From Fodinibius sp. Rm-B-1B1-1 (GTDB taxonomy: Bacteria; Bacteroidota; Rhodothermia; Balneolales; Balneolaceae): a stretch of DNA of 64,000 bases. The stretch is taken from contig NZ_JBCFYD010000001.1 of NCBI RefSeq assembly GCF_038594945.1, forward strand, positions 806,001-870,000, read 5' to 3'. The translations under genes and the position numbers were made by a program. Shown here piece after piece: positions 57,323-64,000 of this stretch. Position 1 is the first letter of the stretch; every line of letters starts with the position of its first letter. The notes beneath the pieces were generated by a model. It saw only the letters and a program-made list of their open reading frames with translations. It did no database searches and was not told where the DNA came from.

Positions 57323-57688
57323 TTAGATTTCATCGGTTACGTCACCTTCAGCCTGACCGGCAATAATCCAAGCTCCCCCTGCCAGCGCTAAATCTTTAAG
57401 GAGATTAGGCATACTGGATTGCATTTCTCCACCAATTACACCCGGCAAGTGAATACTCAATACAAAAATAAGCAGCATTACCCCCAGTAAAATTGTGGCT
57501 AATCGCACCTTTTGTTCAATAAGAATACTTATACAAGCTGCCAGCATTGCCAATCCCGTTAAATAAACCCAAAATACGCCACCGGGAATCGGCACCATTC
57601 CGCCCATTTGCCCTGCATTGACAAAGTGTAGAATTCCAAATACTCCAAATGGCAATGCATATAAATAACGACCTATAGTAGAAAACAT
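57323..57688 (-). CDS. DoxX-like small membrane protein
   Basis: The 121-residue protein has four hydrophobic helices and a DoxX-like start (ALPFGVFGILHFVNAGQMGG), with IPGGVFWVYLTGLAMLAACI and LLKDLALAGGAWIIAGQAEG later. This matches small DoxX-type membrane proteins. It is transcribed leftward and ends near the shared terminator with the RND operon. The function is unknown. It may share its upstream 357-base region with the porin gene's control sites, but it has no matching promoter facing left that I could see. Confidence 0.7.
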   Translation of the reverse strand: MFSTIGRYLYALPFGVFGILHFVNAGQMGGMVPIPGGVFWVYLTGLAMLAACISILIEQKVRLATILLGVMLLIFVLSIHLPGVIGGEMQSSMPNLLKDLALAGGAWIIAGQAEGDVTDEI

Positions 57689-57791: not shown

Positions 57792-57836
57792 TGCAAATCT
57801 GCAAAAATTTGTTTGCTATCCCCATGCAATAATGCA
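57792..57836 (+). promoter_or_regulatory. Paired TGCA-N4-TGCA activator sites upstream of the porin promoter
   Basis: Two sites with the form TGCA-N4-TGCA are present. Site 1 is TGCAAATCTGCA at 57792-57803 and site 2 is TGCAATAATGCA at 57825-57836. Their starts are 33 bases apart, three helical turns, on the same face of the DNA. The -24 GG of the downstream promoter is 142 bases after the start of site 2. The rest of 57689-58045 shows no gene. This layout is that of an upstream activator sequence for a sigma-54 enhancer-binding protein, and the same pair with identical spacing occurs at 60171-60215. Confidence 0.65.
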
Positions 57837-57964
57837 ATGCCCCATTCTTAGACGACAAATCCTCATTATTTAATCACAATTTATTTCAAATAATTATTGT
57901 GCCTATCATCTTTAAAAGACATTTCTAAATAGAATTATTGAAAAATTATCATGTCTTCTCCCGT

Positions 57965-57981
57965 TTGGAACGGATCTTGTA
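57965..57981 (+). promoter_or_regulatory. Sigma-54 promoter of the porin-like gene
   Basis: TTGGAACGGATCTTGTA has GG at 57967-57968 and GT at 57979-57980, ten bases apart. TTGG is the -24 element and TTGT stands for TTGC at -12. The first eight bases (TTGGAACG) and the next G are identical to those of the promoter at 60323. The start of transcription should lie near 57992, leaving a leader of about 54 bases with an AGAGG site before the ATG at 58046. Confidence 0.65.
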
Positions 57982-58045
57982 ATTCTATCTAACGAAGCAC
58001 AAAAAGATAACATCTACACTCACAAAAATAACCAGAGGTTCTATT

Positions 58046-59374
58046 ATGAAGACGTTACACAATATATCCAAGTACATTAGCTTGGCAATCCTAATGGTAT
58101 TCGGGGCGGTCGGAATAGCTTCTGCTCAATTCGATCGGGATATGCAGTATTATACCAATCCTGACCAAACGGGACTAAATCAATTTGAAGCTCCCTTTGA
58201 TACGGATGTTGAGTTCGACGGATTAAATGTCCGAATTGGTGGTGCTAATACGCTACAATTTCAAGGAATTAGCCAAGAAAATACTGGGGATCCATATTTT
58301 GCAGGAACGGATGATAACGGTAATCCAATTTTCAAGACCCTGCCAGAATTAGAAAACAATTTCAACCTTGCTACTTCTAACTTAGATCTGGATGTAGCTT
58401 TGGCCAGCGGTCTTCGCATGCACTTACGTACGTATTTAACATCGCAACACCATACCGAGGCGTATGTTAAAAGTGGATACATGCAGGTAGATCGACTTGA
58501 CTTTATTTCTGAAGGACTGCTTTCCGGCTTAATGGACAAGTTGCGTATTAAAATTGGTCATATGGAACTCAACTACGGTGACAACCACTTCCGCCGTACG
58601 GATAACGCTTTTGCCATCCACAACCCATTTGTAGGTAACTATATCATGGACTCTTTCACTACTGAGGTAGCCGGTGAGATGTACTACTATAATAATGGAA
58701 TGATGGCGATGCTTGGCGTGAGCAATGGTAAACTAAACCAAAGCGTTATTGCCAAGGATATTAAGACACACGCCACTGTTTATGGTAAGTTAGCTTATGA
58801 CAAGAAGATGAACGAAGACACGCGTTTCCGTTTAAGTGCATCGATCCTTAACGTATCCAATTCATCATCTATATACTTGTATTCTGGAGATCGTGCCGGC
58901 TCACGGTACTACAGTGTCATGGATGATGGATTCCGAAGTGGACGTTTTGCCCCAAGCTTTACTCCTGGTTTTGGACAACCAGCTGCAGCAGGGGAAATGA
59001 CTGCCTTTATGCTTAATCCCTTTGTCAAGTTCCAAGGATTCGAATTCTATGGTGTGTTTGAAAACACTTCTGGAAATGTCAAAGGAAACGATAGCCGAAC
59101 GTTTAACCAGTATGGTGCAGAAGCCCTCTATCGTTTTGGAGCTAATGAAAATTTCTATCTCGGTGCTCGTTACAACTTGGTTGATGGTGAAATGACCAAT
59201 GGCGACATCGAAATTGATCGATTCAATATCGGTGGCGGCTGGTTTTTAACCAAAAACGTCATGGCTAAACTGGAGTATGTAACACAATCTTACAACGGTG
59301 ATGGCTATGTTGGAACTAAATATGAAGACGGTAACTTTGACGGTGTGATGCTTGAAGCGGTAATTAGCTTCTAA
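58046..59374 (+). CDS. Outer membrane porin-like beta-barrel protein
   Basis: The 442-residue precursor has a signal peptide (LGIASAQ-like end) and then many beta strands with alternating residues. The final strand is FDGVMLEAVISF, with the C-terminal Phe that signals outer membrane insertion. Segments such as KIGHMELNYGDNHFRRTDNA and FYLGARYNLVDGEMTNGDIE recall phosphate-selective porin-like proteins in layout, but I cannot assign a family. It has its own sigma-54 promoter with paired activator sites and a terminator at 59438. Confidence 0.7.
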   Translation: MKTLHNISKYISLAILMVFGAVGIASAQFDRDMQYYTNPDQTGLNQFEAPFDTDVEFDGLNVRIGGANTLQFQGISQENTGDPYFAGTDDNGNPIFKTLPELENNFNLATSNLDLDVALASGLRMHLRTYLTSQHHTEAYVKSGYMQVDRLDFISEGLLSGLMDKLRIKIGHMELNYGDNHFRRTDNAFAIHNPFVGNYIMDSFTTEVAGEMYYYNNGMMAMLGVSNGKLNQSVIAKDIKTHATVYGKLAYDKKMNEDTRFRLSASILNVSNSSSIYLYSGDRAGSRYYSVMDDGFRSGRFAPSFTPGFGQPAAAGEMTAFMLNPFVKFQGFEFYGVFENTSGNVKGNDSRTFNQYGAEALYRFGANENFYLGARYNLVDGEMTNGDIEIDRFNIGGGWFLTKNVMAKLEYVTQSYNGDGYVGTKYEDGNFDGVMLEAVISF

Positions 59375-59437
59375 CAAGTATTTAACCATGAGGAGCAACC
59401 GACTTATCCCTAAGTCTAAGTTCCAATTCCCCTGATG

Positions 59438-59475
59438 CGGTGTCGCCTGTGAAAAGGCGACACCGTTTTTTATTT
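59438..59475 (+). terminator. Terminator of the porin-like gene
   Basis: CGGTGTCGCCT (59438-59448) pairs with AGGCGACACCG (59455-59465) around a six-base loop and is followed by TTTTTTATTT. It is a strong intrinsic terminator, so the porin-like gene is monocistronic. Confidence 0.85.
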
Positions 59476-59646
59476 GATGGCTATTGTAACCTTTCAATTG
59501 ATATTACTTGCTGGAGATCTATTCAAGTATTATTAACCTCTGAGGTAATAAAGTATTTACAACAATGCCATCTGCCTGTAAATAAGGCATGAGTTATTCT
59601 AATAGCATTGAGAAGATTCCCATCTATAAAGAGTCATTCAACCTAA

Positions 59647-60015
59647 TCAGCGATGCACAGAAGGGAAGTAGTAATTAACCTTACCGATAAGCTCGTTAAA
59701 ATCGAGGGGCTTCATAACAAAGTCGTGAGCACCAGCTATCAGCGCTTTCTGCGTAACCTCAATCTCAACATATGAGCTCATCAATATTATCTTAATAGCA
59801 GGGTAATAGCACTGCAAATACGAAAACAGACCATTACGATCTAACAGCTGGCTGTCCACGATAACCATATCAATATCTGATGAGGTAAGAACCTCTTGCG
59901 CATCAATCGCATTATAAGAGATAAAACAGCGAAAACCTTCTTCGCCCAATACCAATGCAAGCGAATCACAAACGGCTTGCTCCTGGTCGATAATAAGAAT
60001 TGATTGAGGCGTCAT
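59647..60015 (-). CDS. Stand-alone response regulator receiver domain
   Basis: The 122-residue protein consists only of a receiver domain. It has D10, the phosphoacceptor D54 (MVIVDSQLLDRNG), S80 in IILMSSYVE and K102 in FVMKPLDFNELI. The usual second acidic residue of the D-D pair is Gln (Q11), so metal binding may be altered. Its sequence resembles the receiver of the NtrC-type regulator at 61701: SILIIDQE versus SILIADDE, and KPLDFNELI versus KPLEFDEVL. It may compete for phosphate from the same kinase or relay it. It diverges from the YceI operon. Confidence 0.7.
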   Translation of the reverse strand: MTPQSILIIDQEQAVCDSLALVLGEEGFRCFISYNAIDAQEVLTSSDIDMVIVDSQLLDRNGLFSYLQCYYPAIKIILMSSYVEIEVTQKALIAGAHDFVMKPLDFNELIGKVNYYFPSVHR

Positions 60016-60170
60016 GAAAAGAGTAGTCCATCAAAATTGCTGGTTACATATGTAGTAATGCAATTACGAGACCACTTTTAGTTATCATTAATAACTTTCT
60101 TAAATCCCCGTTTATATAGTAGTTACCCCCACTTTTGATTCCTTCTAATAGATGGATACCTAAAGGCCTT

Positions 60171-60215
60171 TGCAGCATTGCAAAAAAACAGATACTGATT
60201 ATTTGCAAGCATGCA
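60171..60215 (+). promoter_or_regulatory. Paired TGCA-N4-TGCA activator sites upstream of the YceI promoter
   Basis: Site 1 is TGCAGCATTGCA (60171-60182) with the outer bases TTTGCA...TGCAAA fully symmetrical. Site 2 is TGCAAGCATGCA (60204-60215). Their starts are 33 bases apart, exactly as upstream of the porin gene. The -24 GG is 121 bases after the start of site 2, 21 bases (two turns) less than at the porin promoter. The rest of 60016-60393 has no visible gene. The receiver gene at 59647 diverges from this region. Confidence 0.7.
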
Positions 60216-60322: not shown

Positions 60323-60339
60323 TTGGAACGGTGATTGCA
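60323..60339 (+). promoter_or_regulatory. Sigma-54 promoter of the YceI operon
   Basis: TTGGAACGGTGATTGCA has GG at 60325-60326 and GC at 60337-60338 with exactly ten bases between. It matches the consensus TTGGCACG-N4-TTGCA except for A in place of C at one position. Transcription would start near 60350, with a 44-base leader to the ATG at 60394 and a strong AAAGGAG site six bases before it. It is the best sigma-54 promoter in the window. Confidence 0.75.
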
Positions 60340-60393: not shown

Positions 60394-60990
60394 ATGAAAT
60401 CTTTATTTACCACATTATTAATTGCTCTATTCACTTTATCCGGAAATGTTTTTGCCCAATCGAACAGCTACAATATTATAGATAAAAGCACTATGCAGAT
60501 CGAGGGTACATCTACCCTGCACGACTGGACGGCCGATGTCGAAAAATTCAGTTCTTATATTAATTTCGATGCCTCCGCCCTCGAAGGGGATACAAAAAAT
60601 AATCCCGTGAAATCCCTCTCTTTGACCATTCCAGTTGAAAGTATTGAAAGCGGGAAGGGCGGTATGAACCGTAAAATGTATGGAGCATTAAAATCTGATG
60701 ACTTCCCAAATATCATGTTCCAGATGGATAATGCCGAACTCACGACGGCTGACTCATCATCAACTATTGAATTGAATATTAATGGAACCCTTACTGTCGC
60801 CGGAACGAGTAAAAGCATAACACTGCCTGTAACCGGAGAACAACAAGGCAATGAATCTTATAAGTTTACCGGGGAATACGAAATCAACATGAAGGATTAC
60901 AATGTTGATCCTCCCTCTGCTATGCTGGGCACTATCAAATCCGGCGAAAAAGTTACGATCTCGTTTGAGTTCTATGTAGCACAATCTTAA
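60394..60990 (+). CDS. YceI family protein 1
   Basis: The 198-residue precursor has a signal peptide (LLIALFTLSGNVFAQ). The YceI lipocalin-like fold follows, with STMQIEGTSTLHDWTADVEK, LSLTIPVESIESGKGGMNRK and MKDYNVDPPSAMLGTIKSGE, ending in the VTISFEFYV strand. The family binds polyisoprenoid or amphiphilic lipids in the periplasm. It is the first gene of a two-gene operon with another YceI-like gene 14 bases downstream. A sigma-54 promoter and paired activator sites precede it, so expression probably depends on the local activator. Confidence 0.9.
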   Translation: MKSLFTTLLIALFTLSGNVFAQSNSYNIIDKSTMQIEGTSTLHDWTADVEKFSSYINFDASALEGDTKNNPVKSLSLTIPVESIESGKGGMNRKMYGALKSDDFPNIMFQMDNAELTTADSSSTIELNINGTLTVAGTSKSITLPVTGEQQGNESYKFTGEYEINMKDYNVDPPSAMLGTIKSGEKVTISFEFYVAQS

Positions 60991-61004: not shown

Positions 61005-61685
61005 ATGCGTCCCGCTTTATATCCACAATGTTCCTTCAAATTAGCAGCTATTAGATGGCTATTCCTGCTGTCATCAACCCTGTTAATTTCCTTTCTGAAC
61101 ACTTCCCAAAGCGGGGCGCAGTCTTTATCATCCAACCTAAGTATTGAAGAGGGAGCACAACTCTGGATTGAGGGATCGGCCAGCATGGTCAACTTTAAAT
61201 GCAAAGCCCAGCAGCTATCAGGAGTAGGAGAAATTGGAAATACCGAACATCCTGAAACTACCGTTCAGGGACAGGGCACTGTTAGCATCGCCATTATCTT
61301 GCCTGTTGACGCACTTGATTGTGGCAAACGTGCTATGAATAAAGATATGTATGAAGCACTAAAAGCAGAGCAGCATTCTACAATAGGCTATCAGTTATTA
61401 GAAGCCACGTTAACGGAACAGGAAGGAATTCCCTCCGACAGCTTATCCCGCTGGATGAATATTCGCACTCGCGGTATTATGAAAATTGCAGGAGAACAGG
61501 ACACCACAACATTTAACGTGCAGGGTAAAATATTAAATGACCAGCGCTTTCGTGTGAAAGGCAGCAAGCCCATCCACATGGATACCTACAATATTGACCC
61601 GCCCCGAGCGATGTTTGGCCTAATAAAGGCCGACAAGAACCTGACTGTCCATTTTGATGTCATCGTTAGGCTTAATAAAGAATAG
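61005..61685 (+). CDS. YceI-like protein 2
   Basis: The 226-residue precursor has a signal peptide (FLLSSTLLISFLNTSQSGAQ) and a divergent YceI fold. It contains EGAQLWIEGSASMVNFKCKA, IALDCGKRAMNKDMYEALKA-like sequence (from ALDCGKRAMN onward), and DTYNIDPPRAMFGLIKADKN near the end. It retains the family's DPP-AMFG element. It is co-transcribed with the first YceI gene, 14 bases apart. The pair may form a mixed dimer, but that is an inference. It is convergent with the sigma-54 activator. Confidence 0.8.
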   Translation: MRPALYPQCSFKLAAIRWLFLLSSTLLISFLNTSQSGAQSLSSNLSIEEGAQLWIEGSASMVNFKCKAQQLSGVGEIGNTEHPETTVQGQGTVSIAIILPVDALDCGKRAMNKDMYEALKAEQHSTIGYQLLEATLTEQEGIPSDSLSRWMNIRTRGIMKIAGEQDTTTFNVQGKILNDQRFRVKGSKPIHMDTYNIDPPRAMFGLIKADKNLTVHFDVIVRLNKE

Positions 61686-61700
61686 AATAACTAAGCCCGA

Positions 61701-63059
61701 TTAATCCGACACGCCCAACCGTTCCATTTTGCGATACAACGTAGAGGGATCGATCCCCAATAAGCGCGCCGCCTCCGACTTATTCCCTTCCGTTCGTTTA
61801 AGCACACTTTGGATATGATGTTTTTCAAATACCTGGGTAGCCTCATCCAGCTTATCGCTGTCAATCTCAAAGTCATCGTGTTCAGATATTTTACGCAGCG
61901 ATGCCGGCAGATCCTCAATCCTCAAAAAATCGTCTTCACTTAACAGTACTGCGCGTTCTATAACATTTTCGAGCTCCCGCACTTGCCCCTTCCACTGGTA
62001 TCCCATCATAGCACCCATGGCTTCACTGGTAATACCCTTTATATTTCGTTTGAGCTCTTTATTATATTTTTGCAGAAAATGATGAGCCAGCAGCGGAATA
62101 TCCTCTTTGCGCTGCTCAAGCGGCGGCAGGGGAATCTCCACCACATTAAGGCGATAATATAAATCATCGCGGAAATTCCCTTCCTCCACTTCTTTCTCAA
62201 GGTTCTTATTTGTTGCCGCTATAATGCGCGTATCAAATGAAACGTGCTTGTTAGATCCTACCGGCTTTACTTCGCGCTCCTGCAAAACCCGCAGCAAATT
62301 CACTTGTAGATTCAGCGGAATTTCCGCCACCTCATCCAAAAAGACCGTCCCACCATGGGCTGCTACAAAAACGCCATCCTTATCTTCATTCGCCCCAGTA
62401 AACGCCCCTTTCTTATGGCCAAAGAGTTCCGATTCTACCAAATTCTCGGGAATGGCCCCACAATTGATTGCCAGAAATGGCTTCTTGGATCGTTTGCTAT
62501 TAGAATGAATCGCCCGGGCAACCAACTCCTTGCCAGTACCACTTTGGCCCGTTACCAACACATTACTGGAAGCCTGGCTAACCCGCTCAACCATTTTGTA
62601 AACCTTCTTCATGGCCTTGCTTTCACCAATAATATGGTTAAAGTTGTATTCTCTATCGATCTGCTCCCGCAAGTACTTATTTTCCTGGGCTAAACTTTTT
62701 TGCTCCAGCAGGTTCTGTATGCGGATGAGCACCTCATCAAATTCGAGCGGCTTTAAAATATAATCAGCTGCTCCTTTTCGGAGTGCCTGTATAGCTGTTT
62801 CAATGGTACCGTGGGCCGTAATAATAATGGTAAGTGTATCAGAAGAGTGTTTCAGGGCGTAATCCAATACTTCAATACCATCCGCATTTGGCATCTTTAA
62901 ATCTGTAATAACGATATCATAGCTGGCCTTGTCGATTGCCTCAATAGCTTCCTGGCCATCTTTTACAGCCGTACAATCGTAACCCTCATCCTCCAACACA
63001 ATAGTTAACGATTCCCTGATACTTGTTTCATCATCCGCTATTAAAATAGATGCATTCAT
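61701..63059 (-). CDS. NtrC-family sigma-54 activator (receiver-AAA+-Fis)
   Basis: From the ATG at 63059 it has 452 residues. The receiver has the acidic pair in LIADDETS, D53 in IVITDLKMP and K in ILKPLEFDE. The AAA+ domain has Walker A GQSGTGKE, the sigma-54 contact loop GAFTGA, Walker B GGTVFLDEVAEIP and the arginine finger region. A Fis-type helix-turn-helix (EGNKSEAARLLGIDPSTLYR) ends the protein. All elements of a working enhancer-binding protein are present. An alternative GTG start at 63065 overlaps the stop of the kinase by one base, so the two are coupled. Sites of the form TGCA-N4-TGCA nearby are its likely targets. Confidence 0.9.
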   Translation of the reverse strand: MNASILIADDETSIRESLTIVLEDEGYDCTAVKDGQEAIEAIDKASYDIVITDLKMPNADGIEVLDYALKHSSDTLTIIITAHGTIETAIQALRKGAADYILKPLEFDEVLIRIQNLLEQKSLAQENKYLREQIDREYNFNHIIGESKAMKKVYKMVERVSQASSNVLVTGQSGTGKELVARAIHSNSKRSKKPFLAINCGAIPENLVESELFGHKKGAFTGANEDKDGVFVAAHGGTVFLDEVAEIPLNLQVNLLRVLQEREVKPVGSNKHVSFDTRIIAATNKNLEKEVEEGNFRDDLYYRLNVVEIPLPPLEQRKEDIPLLAHHFLQKYNKELKRNIKGITSEAMGAMMGYQWKGQVRELENVIERAVLLSEDDFLRIEDLPASLRKISEHDDFEIDSDKLDEATQVFEKHHIQSVLKRTEGNKSEAARLLGIDPSTLYRKMERLGVSD

Positions 63060-63064
63060 AAACA

Positions 63065-64000
63065 CTAATTATTGGTCGGTAATTGAATGATAAATGTTGT
63101 TTTTTCACCATAAGTCGACTCCACGCTAATAGAACCGCCCATTTTATTGACGATACCGTGACTTACCGAAAGTCCCAACCCCGTGCCAGTACCCACTTCT
63201 TTAGTGGTAAAAAACGGTTCGAAAATCCGAGACAGATGCTCCTCCTTTATACCCTTTCCGTTATCAGTAACGGTAAGCCATGCAGCGTCATTCTCTTTTT
63301 TTGTTTTAACGGTCACTTTGGGATCTTCCTCCCCTTCCATCGCATCCACTGCATTTAACAACAGATTTACCAATACCTGGTGGACTTGATCGGGCACACA
63401 AGAGATTAAGGGCAAGTCTTTGGAAAGATTCATTTCAAACGTCACATCTTTACAGCGAGCATCGTGCTGTAACAATCCCACTGCCGACTCAATAATTTCG
63501 TTAATTTGCACATTCTCAGACTGCATCTTTGACGGACGCGAAAAGTCGACTAAATCCCGGACAATTTTATTTATCCGCTGGATGTGCTCACGCACTTTTT
63601 TAAGCTGATTCTGTACAAACGCATCATCCGTCTTACGCTGACACACCTGCACCAGCGAAGATATAGCCGTTAACGGATTACCTACCTCATGGGCAACCCC
63701 GGCCGCCATATGACCTACTGTAGCCAGGCGTTCCGACTGCTGAATCTGCTCCTCCTTCATTTTGATATCCGTCAAATCACGCAAAATCTGTGACCGTCCT
63801 ATAATCTCATCTTTGTTATTCCGTATATAAGATTCGGTAAGGTTTACCAGCTTCCTTTCGCCATTTTTAGTCAGGCGCTCGGTCTCATAATTACTAACAT
63901 GACCTCGGCGTTGCATGTCGGATTTTATGCGCTGAAGCTCTTGCATTTCAATCAGCTCTTCCGGCATAATATCGCTAATGGGTTTTCCAATGATTTCATC
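63065..64000 (-). CDS. PAS-histidine kinase, partner of the sigma-54 activator (partial)
   Basis: The frame continues beyond the window at 64000. The visible part starts within a PAS domain ([20 protein letters not shown]) with its PAC strand [13 protein letters not shown]. It then has the HisKA site [20 protein letters not shown] and the ATPase domain with [23 protein letters not shown] and [15 protein letters not shown]. It is an NtrB-like kinase with no membrane helix in the visible part. Its stop overlaps the start of the activator gene. Together they should control the two sigma-54 promoters at 57965 and 60323. Confidence 0.85.

Follow-up and report, generated by a model that had tools for sequence, protein, structure and literature searches.

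Upstream of sigma-54 promoters in Fodinibius sp. Rm-B-1B1-1 and its relatives lie pairs of the palindrome TTGCA-N4-TGCAA. These pairs are very probably the upstream activating sequences of an NtrC-type sigma-54 activator, encoded at 61701–63059 of the stretch of DNA that we analyzed (the window, 64,000 nt), although this assignment is based on sequence comparison, without binding or expression data. We also lean, with distinctly less assurance, toward a broader proposal, in which a lineage-specific two-component sigma-54 system would control nirK and nosZ, both core genes of denitrification, along with a porin-YceI group through the paired site, and in which the promoters would record the in vivo helical repeat (10.9 bp) through evolution. 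Control of nirK and nosZ is generally attributed to regulators of the CRP/FNR or Rrf2 type. If the proposal is true, a sigma-54 two-component regulon of nirK and clade II nosZ represents a new way in which a little-studied group of bacteria controls how N2O is produced and consumed.

TGCA-N4-TGCA occurs four times in the window, always as an exact match and always within one of two pairs; the sites are assigned no strand. One pair precedes the promoter of a porin-like gene, with its distal site at 57792–57803 (TGCAAATCTGCA) and its proximal site at 57825–57836 (TGCAATAATGCA). The other lies between yceI and a divergent response regulator gene, the site at 60171–60182 (TGCAGCATTGCA) being distal to yceI and proximal to the divergent gene, and that at 60204–60215 (TGCAAGCATGCA) the reverse. 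Their role as enhancer sites is putative. Four or more matches were obtained in 4 of 100 shuffles of the window, so the site count alone is weak evidence. What is improbable is the arrangement of the sites rather than their number. The complete genome (3.41 Mb) contains 31 single sites, versus 18 for a reversed control pattern, but only three instances of two sites separated by a gap of 10–35 bp, and the control pattern yields none. All three of these exact pairs lie upstream of a TGG-N9-TTG promoter. The third (C1:594445–594488, offset 32) is ∼270 kb from the window pairs and precedes a TGGCACAACCCTTGCG promoter and a nirK-like gene. From the start of the proximal site to the –24 GG, the distances are 142, 121 and 99 at the porin, yceI and nirK-like pairs, respectively. 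A first-pass annotation of this DNA had reported two copies of the motif before each of two sigma-54 promoters, at distances of 142 and 121, and had proposed a genome-wide scan for further pairs; the four sites and both distances were reproduced, and the scan ties every exact pair to a sigma-54 promoter.

The sigma-54 –24/–12 element of the porin-like gene (TGGAACGGATCTTGTA) lies on the plus strand at 57966–57981. The pair is conserved before porin orthologs, and in most of them the same element is found 131–142 bp from it. The proposed target (58046–59374, plus strand) is an open reading frame without a Pfam or NCBIfam match, and its designation as a porin-like outer-membrane β-barrel relies on a strand-rich, low-confidence structure model (mean pLDDT 57), too weak for a fold search. 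Divergent from it, in a position kept in relatives, is a gene (57323–57688, minus strand) for a small membrane protein that we take to be DoxX-like; neither a Pfam match nor a sigma-54 element was found for this gene. At the second pair, a plus-strand –24/–12 element (TGGAACGGTGATTGCA, 60324–60339) precedes the YceI-family gene yceI1 (60394–60990, plus strand; PF04264, 66 bits), also a proposed target. The open reading frame yceI2 (61005–61685, plus strand), which has no Pfam match of its own, is assigned to the same operon by position and adjoins yceI1 in relatives as a second YceI-like gene. On the far side of this pair, at 109 bp, lies a minus-strand sigma-54 promoter (TGGTCTCGTAATTGCA, 60059–60074) that is absent from the earlier account. 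It precedes a gene for a receiver-only response regulator (59647–60015, minus strand; PF00072 alone), a proposed divergent target, and it is kept in relatives at 99–132 bp from the pair. Given this conserved arrangement, one pair appears to serve two promoters, as the palindromic nature of the sites would allow.

The product of the minus-strand gene at 61701–63059 has the three parts expected of an NtrC-type activator, namely a receiver domain (PF00072), a sigma-54 AAA+ domain with a GAFTGA loop (PF00158) and a Fis-type helix-turn-helix (PF02954). The DNA also conforms to this type, with paired palindromes upstream of –24/–12 promoters and a genome that encodes RpoN, along with six full sigma-54 activators. 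Against the NtrC (NR-I) model TIGR01818 the activator scores 441.4 bits, below the cut-off of 558.6. The 15 orthologs compared, some no more than 54% identical, all have the same recognition helix, IDPSTLYRKME. Outside the order, the two closest relatives that carry a name, from the Bacteroidetes SB10 and Ignavibacteria RBG_16_34_14 MAGs, are 51% identical and have different recognition helices, and no site was seen in the stretches examined. Next to the activator gene, also on the minus strand, is a gene for a sensor kinase with PAS, HisKA and HATPase domains (63065–64000, continuing past the window end). The complete protein, 434 aa in length, begins with two hydrophobic segments.

To follow the pairs across the order, we searched 129 genomes for exact pairs with a gap of 19–23 bp. 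Such pairs are present in 19 genomes, including every genome of the window's genus (at least one pair each), while the reversed control matched in one genome of the whole set. Activator orthologs, which score 534 bits or more and stand clearly apart from the other activators (401 bits at best), were likewise found in 19 of the 129 genomes, 18 of which carry exact pairs. The remaining one, G106, has a one-mismatch pair between the divergent sigma-54 promoters of yceI1 and the porin gene. The only pair-bearing genome lacking the activator is G126, and the match there was set aside as a tandem repeat. The repeat unit is the 8-mer TGCACGAC, and the array at G126:C4:152579–152654 imitates the motif. 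Fisher tests of pair versus activator give P values of 8e-20 by genome and 1.5e-5 by genus, with pairs in 6 of 7 genera that have the activator and 1 of 32 that do not. Most activator genomes come from one genus, and because the 129 genomes are not independent, the genus-level figure is the fairer one. Within a single genus, two genomes (G103, G105) have both activator and pairs and another (G104) has neither.

Among relatives, pairs are found upstream of yceI, the porin gene, nirK and a cytochrome c-nosZ operon; among all targets, yceI, the porin gene and the receiver-only gene are shared most widely. When one mismatch was permitted at a fixed offset of 32 or 33, the reversed control gave no match in 19 genomes. 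Additional offset-32 pairs were observed upstream of nosZ, nirK, a second nirK type, an alcohol dehydrogenase gene, the porin gene and the divergent genes for a TonB-like protein and an M3-type peptidase. The comparison of orthologous promoters that the first-pass annotation had called for bears out its reading, since the pairs are conserved there even as the N4 and spacer sequences differ. The same differences between copies, together with conservation across genera, uphold its argument against a plain duplication.

Since the activator gene is linked to the promoters of yceI and the porin gene, independent tests come only from remote promoters, such as those of nirK and nosZ. With nirK orthologs counted at 76% identity or more, pairs precede the gene in all six activator genomes that have it, five of them with a strong –24/–12 match. 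In genomes without the activator, no pair was found at any of 12 full-length orthologs or at four further partial matches. The nosZ operons, in which the cytochrome c gene comes first, show the same division. Pairs are present in 12 of 14 activator genomes (with one mismatch at most in 11, and two mismatches in G017) and at none of the 16 operons in activator-less genomes. Operons of the activator-bearing G034 and G037 (L218, L224) have no recognizable pair. Because pairs occur at nirK and nosZ only where the activator does, nitrogen-oxide respiration appears to be a recurrent output. The annotation had proposed that the adjacent activator binds the sites; this remains an interpretation without binding data, but one that the sequences support, in that pairs follow the activator even to the unlinked nirK and nosZ promoters.

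The nirK-like protein of the window's own genome (C1:594661) scores 193 bits, below the TIGR02376 NirK cut-off of 296, although its alignment with solved copper nitrite reductases runs through MPHSMDFHA, YHCGT and SSFHV, conserved segments of the copper site. The second nirK type, found in G009 (L183), exceeds the same cut-off with 384 bits. NosZ of the relatives, at 943 bits versus a TIGR04246 cut-off of 625, belongs to the Sec-dependent type (clade II). The window's own genome has no nosZ match, and no canonical FNR-type box was found at its nirK. The neighborhood of its nirK-like gene (L034:1771–10779) is NO-related, encoding a RIC-like repair protein, a DUF2249 protein, SCO1, two cupredoxins and an Rrf2 regulator.

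The consensus of 152 sites is symmetric, TTGCA-N4-TGCAA, and preference inside N4 is weak. The annotation had described an identical spacing of 33 bases. This is correct for both window pairs but does not generalize, since the offset within pairs ranges from 31 to 34 bp (mode 32), close to three turns but not fixed at 33 bp. To analyze the distance from pair to promoter, we defined the promoter element as TGG-N[AC]-N6-TTG at 40–175 bp from the pair. The 61 distinct pairs yielded 76 pair-promoter combinations, versus ∼4 expected from background density, with the sites 65–164 bp upstream of the sigma-54 promoter. Distances cluster near 66, 76, 87, 99, 109, 120, 131 and 142. For 58 distinct values of gene class and distance, the Rayleigh R is 0.60 at a period of 10.9 bp, a value reached by none of 20000 random sets, and a bootstrap over gene classes places the period at 10.76–11.18. 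Distinct distances alone (38 values) give an R of 0.47. The yceI distances 124, 128, 129 and 137 fall outside the periodic series. The period of 10.9 bp is close to the in vivo helical repeat, looping in bacteria indicating ∼11 bp per turn (PMC8501960). Because the periodicity spans 76 combinations, the argument for a common helical phase, originally made for two promoters, extends well beyond them, some yceI distances excepted. The set is also a natural data set on enhancer spacing evolving by whole helical turns.

Several other explanations of the pairs were considered. The sites could be enhancers for a different member of the six activators in the genome, and the recognition helix of the one encoded at C1:1179569 (L068), IGTSTLYRKIEEY, resembles that of the window activator. 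We regard this as unlikely, since proteins of ∼40–45% identity, the level of the other activators, are present in most pair-less genomes, whereas the close ortholog tracks the pairs almost perfectly and its gene adjoins the yceI pair in nearly all genomes that have it. It is also conceivable that an Rrf2-type (NsrR-like) regulator from the nirK and nosZ neighborhoods binds the pairs. TGCA also occurs in NsrR sites; in several relatives an Rrf2 gene immediately precedes the nosZ pair, and in the window's own genome one lies downstream of the nirK cluster. But Rrf2 homologs are found in 107 of the 129 genomes, most of them without pairs, and the position of the sites, in phase and 65–164 bp before a sigma-54 promoter, fits an enhancer; we consider this explanation very improbable and, on the distribution, rule out Rrf2 as the binder. 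Finally, a count of four single sites in 64 kb is only slightly out of the ordinary, which leaves room in principle for chance matches or a copied block. The differing N4 and spacer sequences, the nearly empty reversed controls and the conservation across genera exclude both, as far as we can judge.

With the window activator as the preferred binder, a mechanism can be proposed. The membrane sensor kinase (63065 onward) would presumably phosphorylate the activator, of which one dimer would occupy each TTGCA-N4-TGCAA palindrome. Two dimers, lying ∼three helical turns apart on one face of the DNA, would seed the active oligomer. A DNA loop of whole turns would then allow the AAA+ ring to reach RNA polymerase-sigma-54 at the –24/–12 promoter, which the ring would open. 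The sites and promoters, their conservation, the association with the activator and the periodic distances are seen in the sequences themselves. Binding, activation and the physiological role are inferences, as are phosphorylation, the signal and the direction of regulation, for which the protein family is the basis. In this lineage the regulon would comprise the outer-membrane porin, the YceI pair and the receiver-only regulator, with nirK, cytochrome c-nosZ and some other genes added in various species.

Which signal the regulon answers is less clear. It could be real, and yet respond not to nitrogen oxides but to low oxygen, the redox state of quinones or envelope/copper stress, with the denitrification genes secondary, a reading that concerns the role of the system rather than binding. 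We consider this quite possible, although we do not favor it. The most widely shared targets are yceI, the porin gene and the receiver-only gene, the f3-family genomes have the system but no nirK match, and in some species pairs precede genes for alcohol dehydrogenase, a TonB-like protein and an M3-type peptidase. Against it, pairs at nirK and nosZ are confined to activator genomes. Because yceI and the porin gene are shared so widely, including by the f3-family genomes without a nirK match, the denitrification genes look like recruits to an older porin-YceI regulon.

Enhancer activation of this kind is classical; the novelty appears to lie in the specificity for the site and in a regulon that includes nirK and nosZ. 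The closest parallel is LuxO, which binds the 13-bp site TTGCAWWWTGCAA upstream of Vibrio qrr genes and shares with the present system the receiver-AAA+-Fis architecture, the TTGCA/TGCAA palindrome arms and the sigma-54 promoters (PMC10162802, PMC10328515). The LuxO spacer is W3, one base shorter than the N4 of the window sites, which is not A/T-restricted; LuxO controls small RNAs, whereas the targets proposed here are respiratory and envelope genes; and the window activator scores 402.5 bits versus an NCBIfam equivalog cut-off of 800. The annotation knew of no such specificity from the literature; the full site does appear to be new, but the half-site has a precedent in LuxO, which has the same one (PMC10162802). 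Among named models, AtoC scores best for the response regulator and AtoS for the kinase, but the activator reaches only 471.8 bits against the AtoC equivalog cut-off of 714, and the verified AtoC site is a 40-bp inverted palindrome (PMC3118216). NorR, too, is a sigma-54 activator with several upstream sites that controls a nitrogen-oxide gene, but it binds GT-N7-AC rather than TTGCA-N4-TGCAA and mainly controls NO reductase (PMC1274295). The window activator scores 351.4 bits against the NorR model, whose cut-off is 476. To our knowledge, NorR has no receiver domain.

In a comparative survey, the known regulators of nirK and nosZ were DNR, NnrR and NsrR (PMC1274295). These control the same target genes in Proteobacteria, but through CRP/FNR-type boxes (CTTGATnnnnATCAAG) or Rrf2 repressor sites rather than sigma-54 enhancers (PMC1274295). 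A 2025 survey of sigma-54 regulons makes no mention of nirK or denitrification. The motif strings that we tried gave no match in the literature searched, which was open-access only, so this is not proof of novelty. The paired sites before nirK and nosZ in relatives suggest a previously undescribed denitrification-gene switch. Such a switch would give its regulator a DNA code that can be read, and regulons would become predictable by sequence.

Two sets of pairs can be described in more detail. One-mismatch pairs lie upstream of a TonB-like gene at four loci (L186, L190, L192 and L197), with –24 elements of the TGGTCT/TGGTAT type, and at three of these an M3-type peptidase gene lies across from the TonB-like gene. 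In the window's own genome, a one-mismatch pair with an offset of 32 (C1:1250800–1250843; L035:4801–4844) is situated between genes for a β-lactamase-like serine hydrolase and a conserved membrane protein. It is flanked on both sides by weak sigma-54 elements, and G011 (L103) has an exact pair at the same place.
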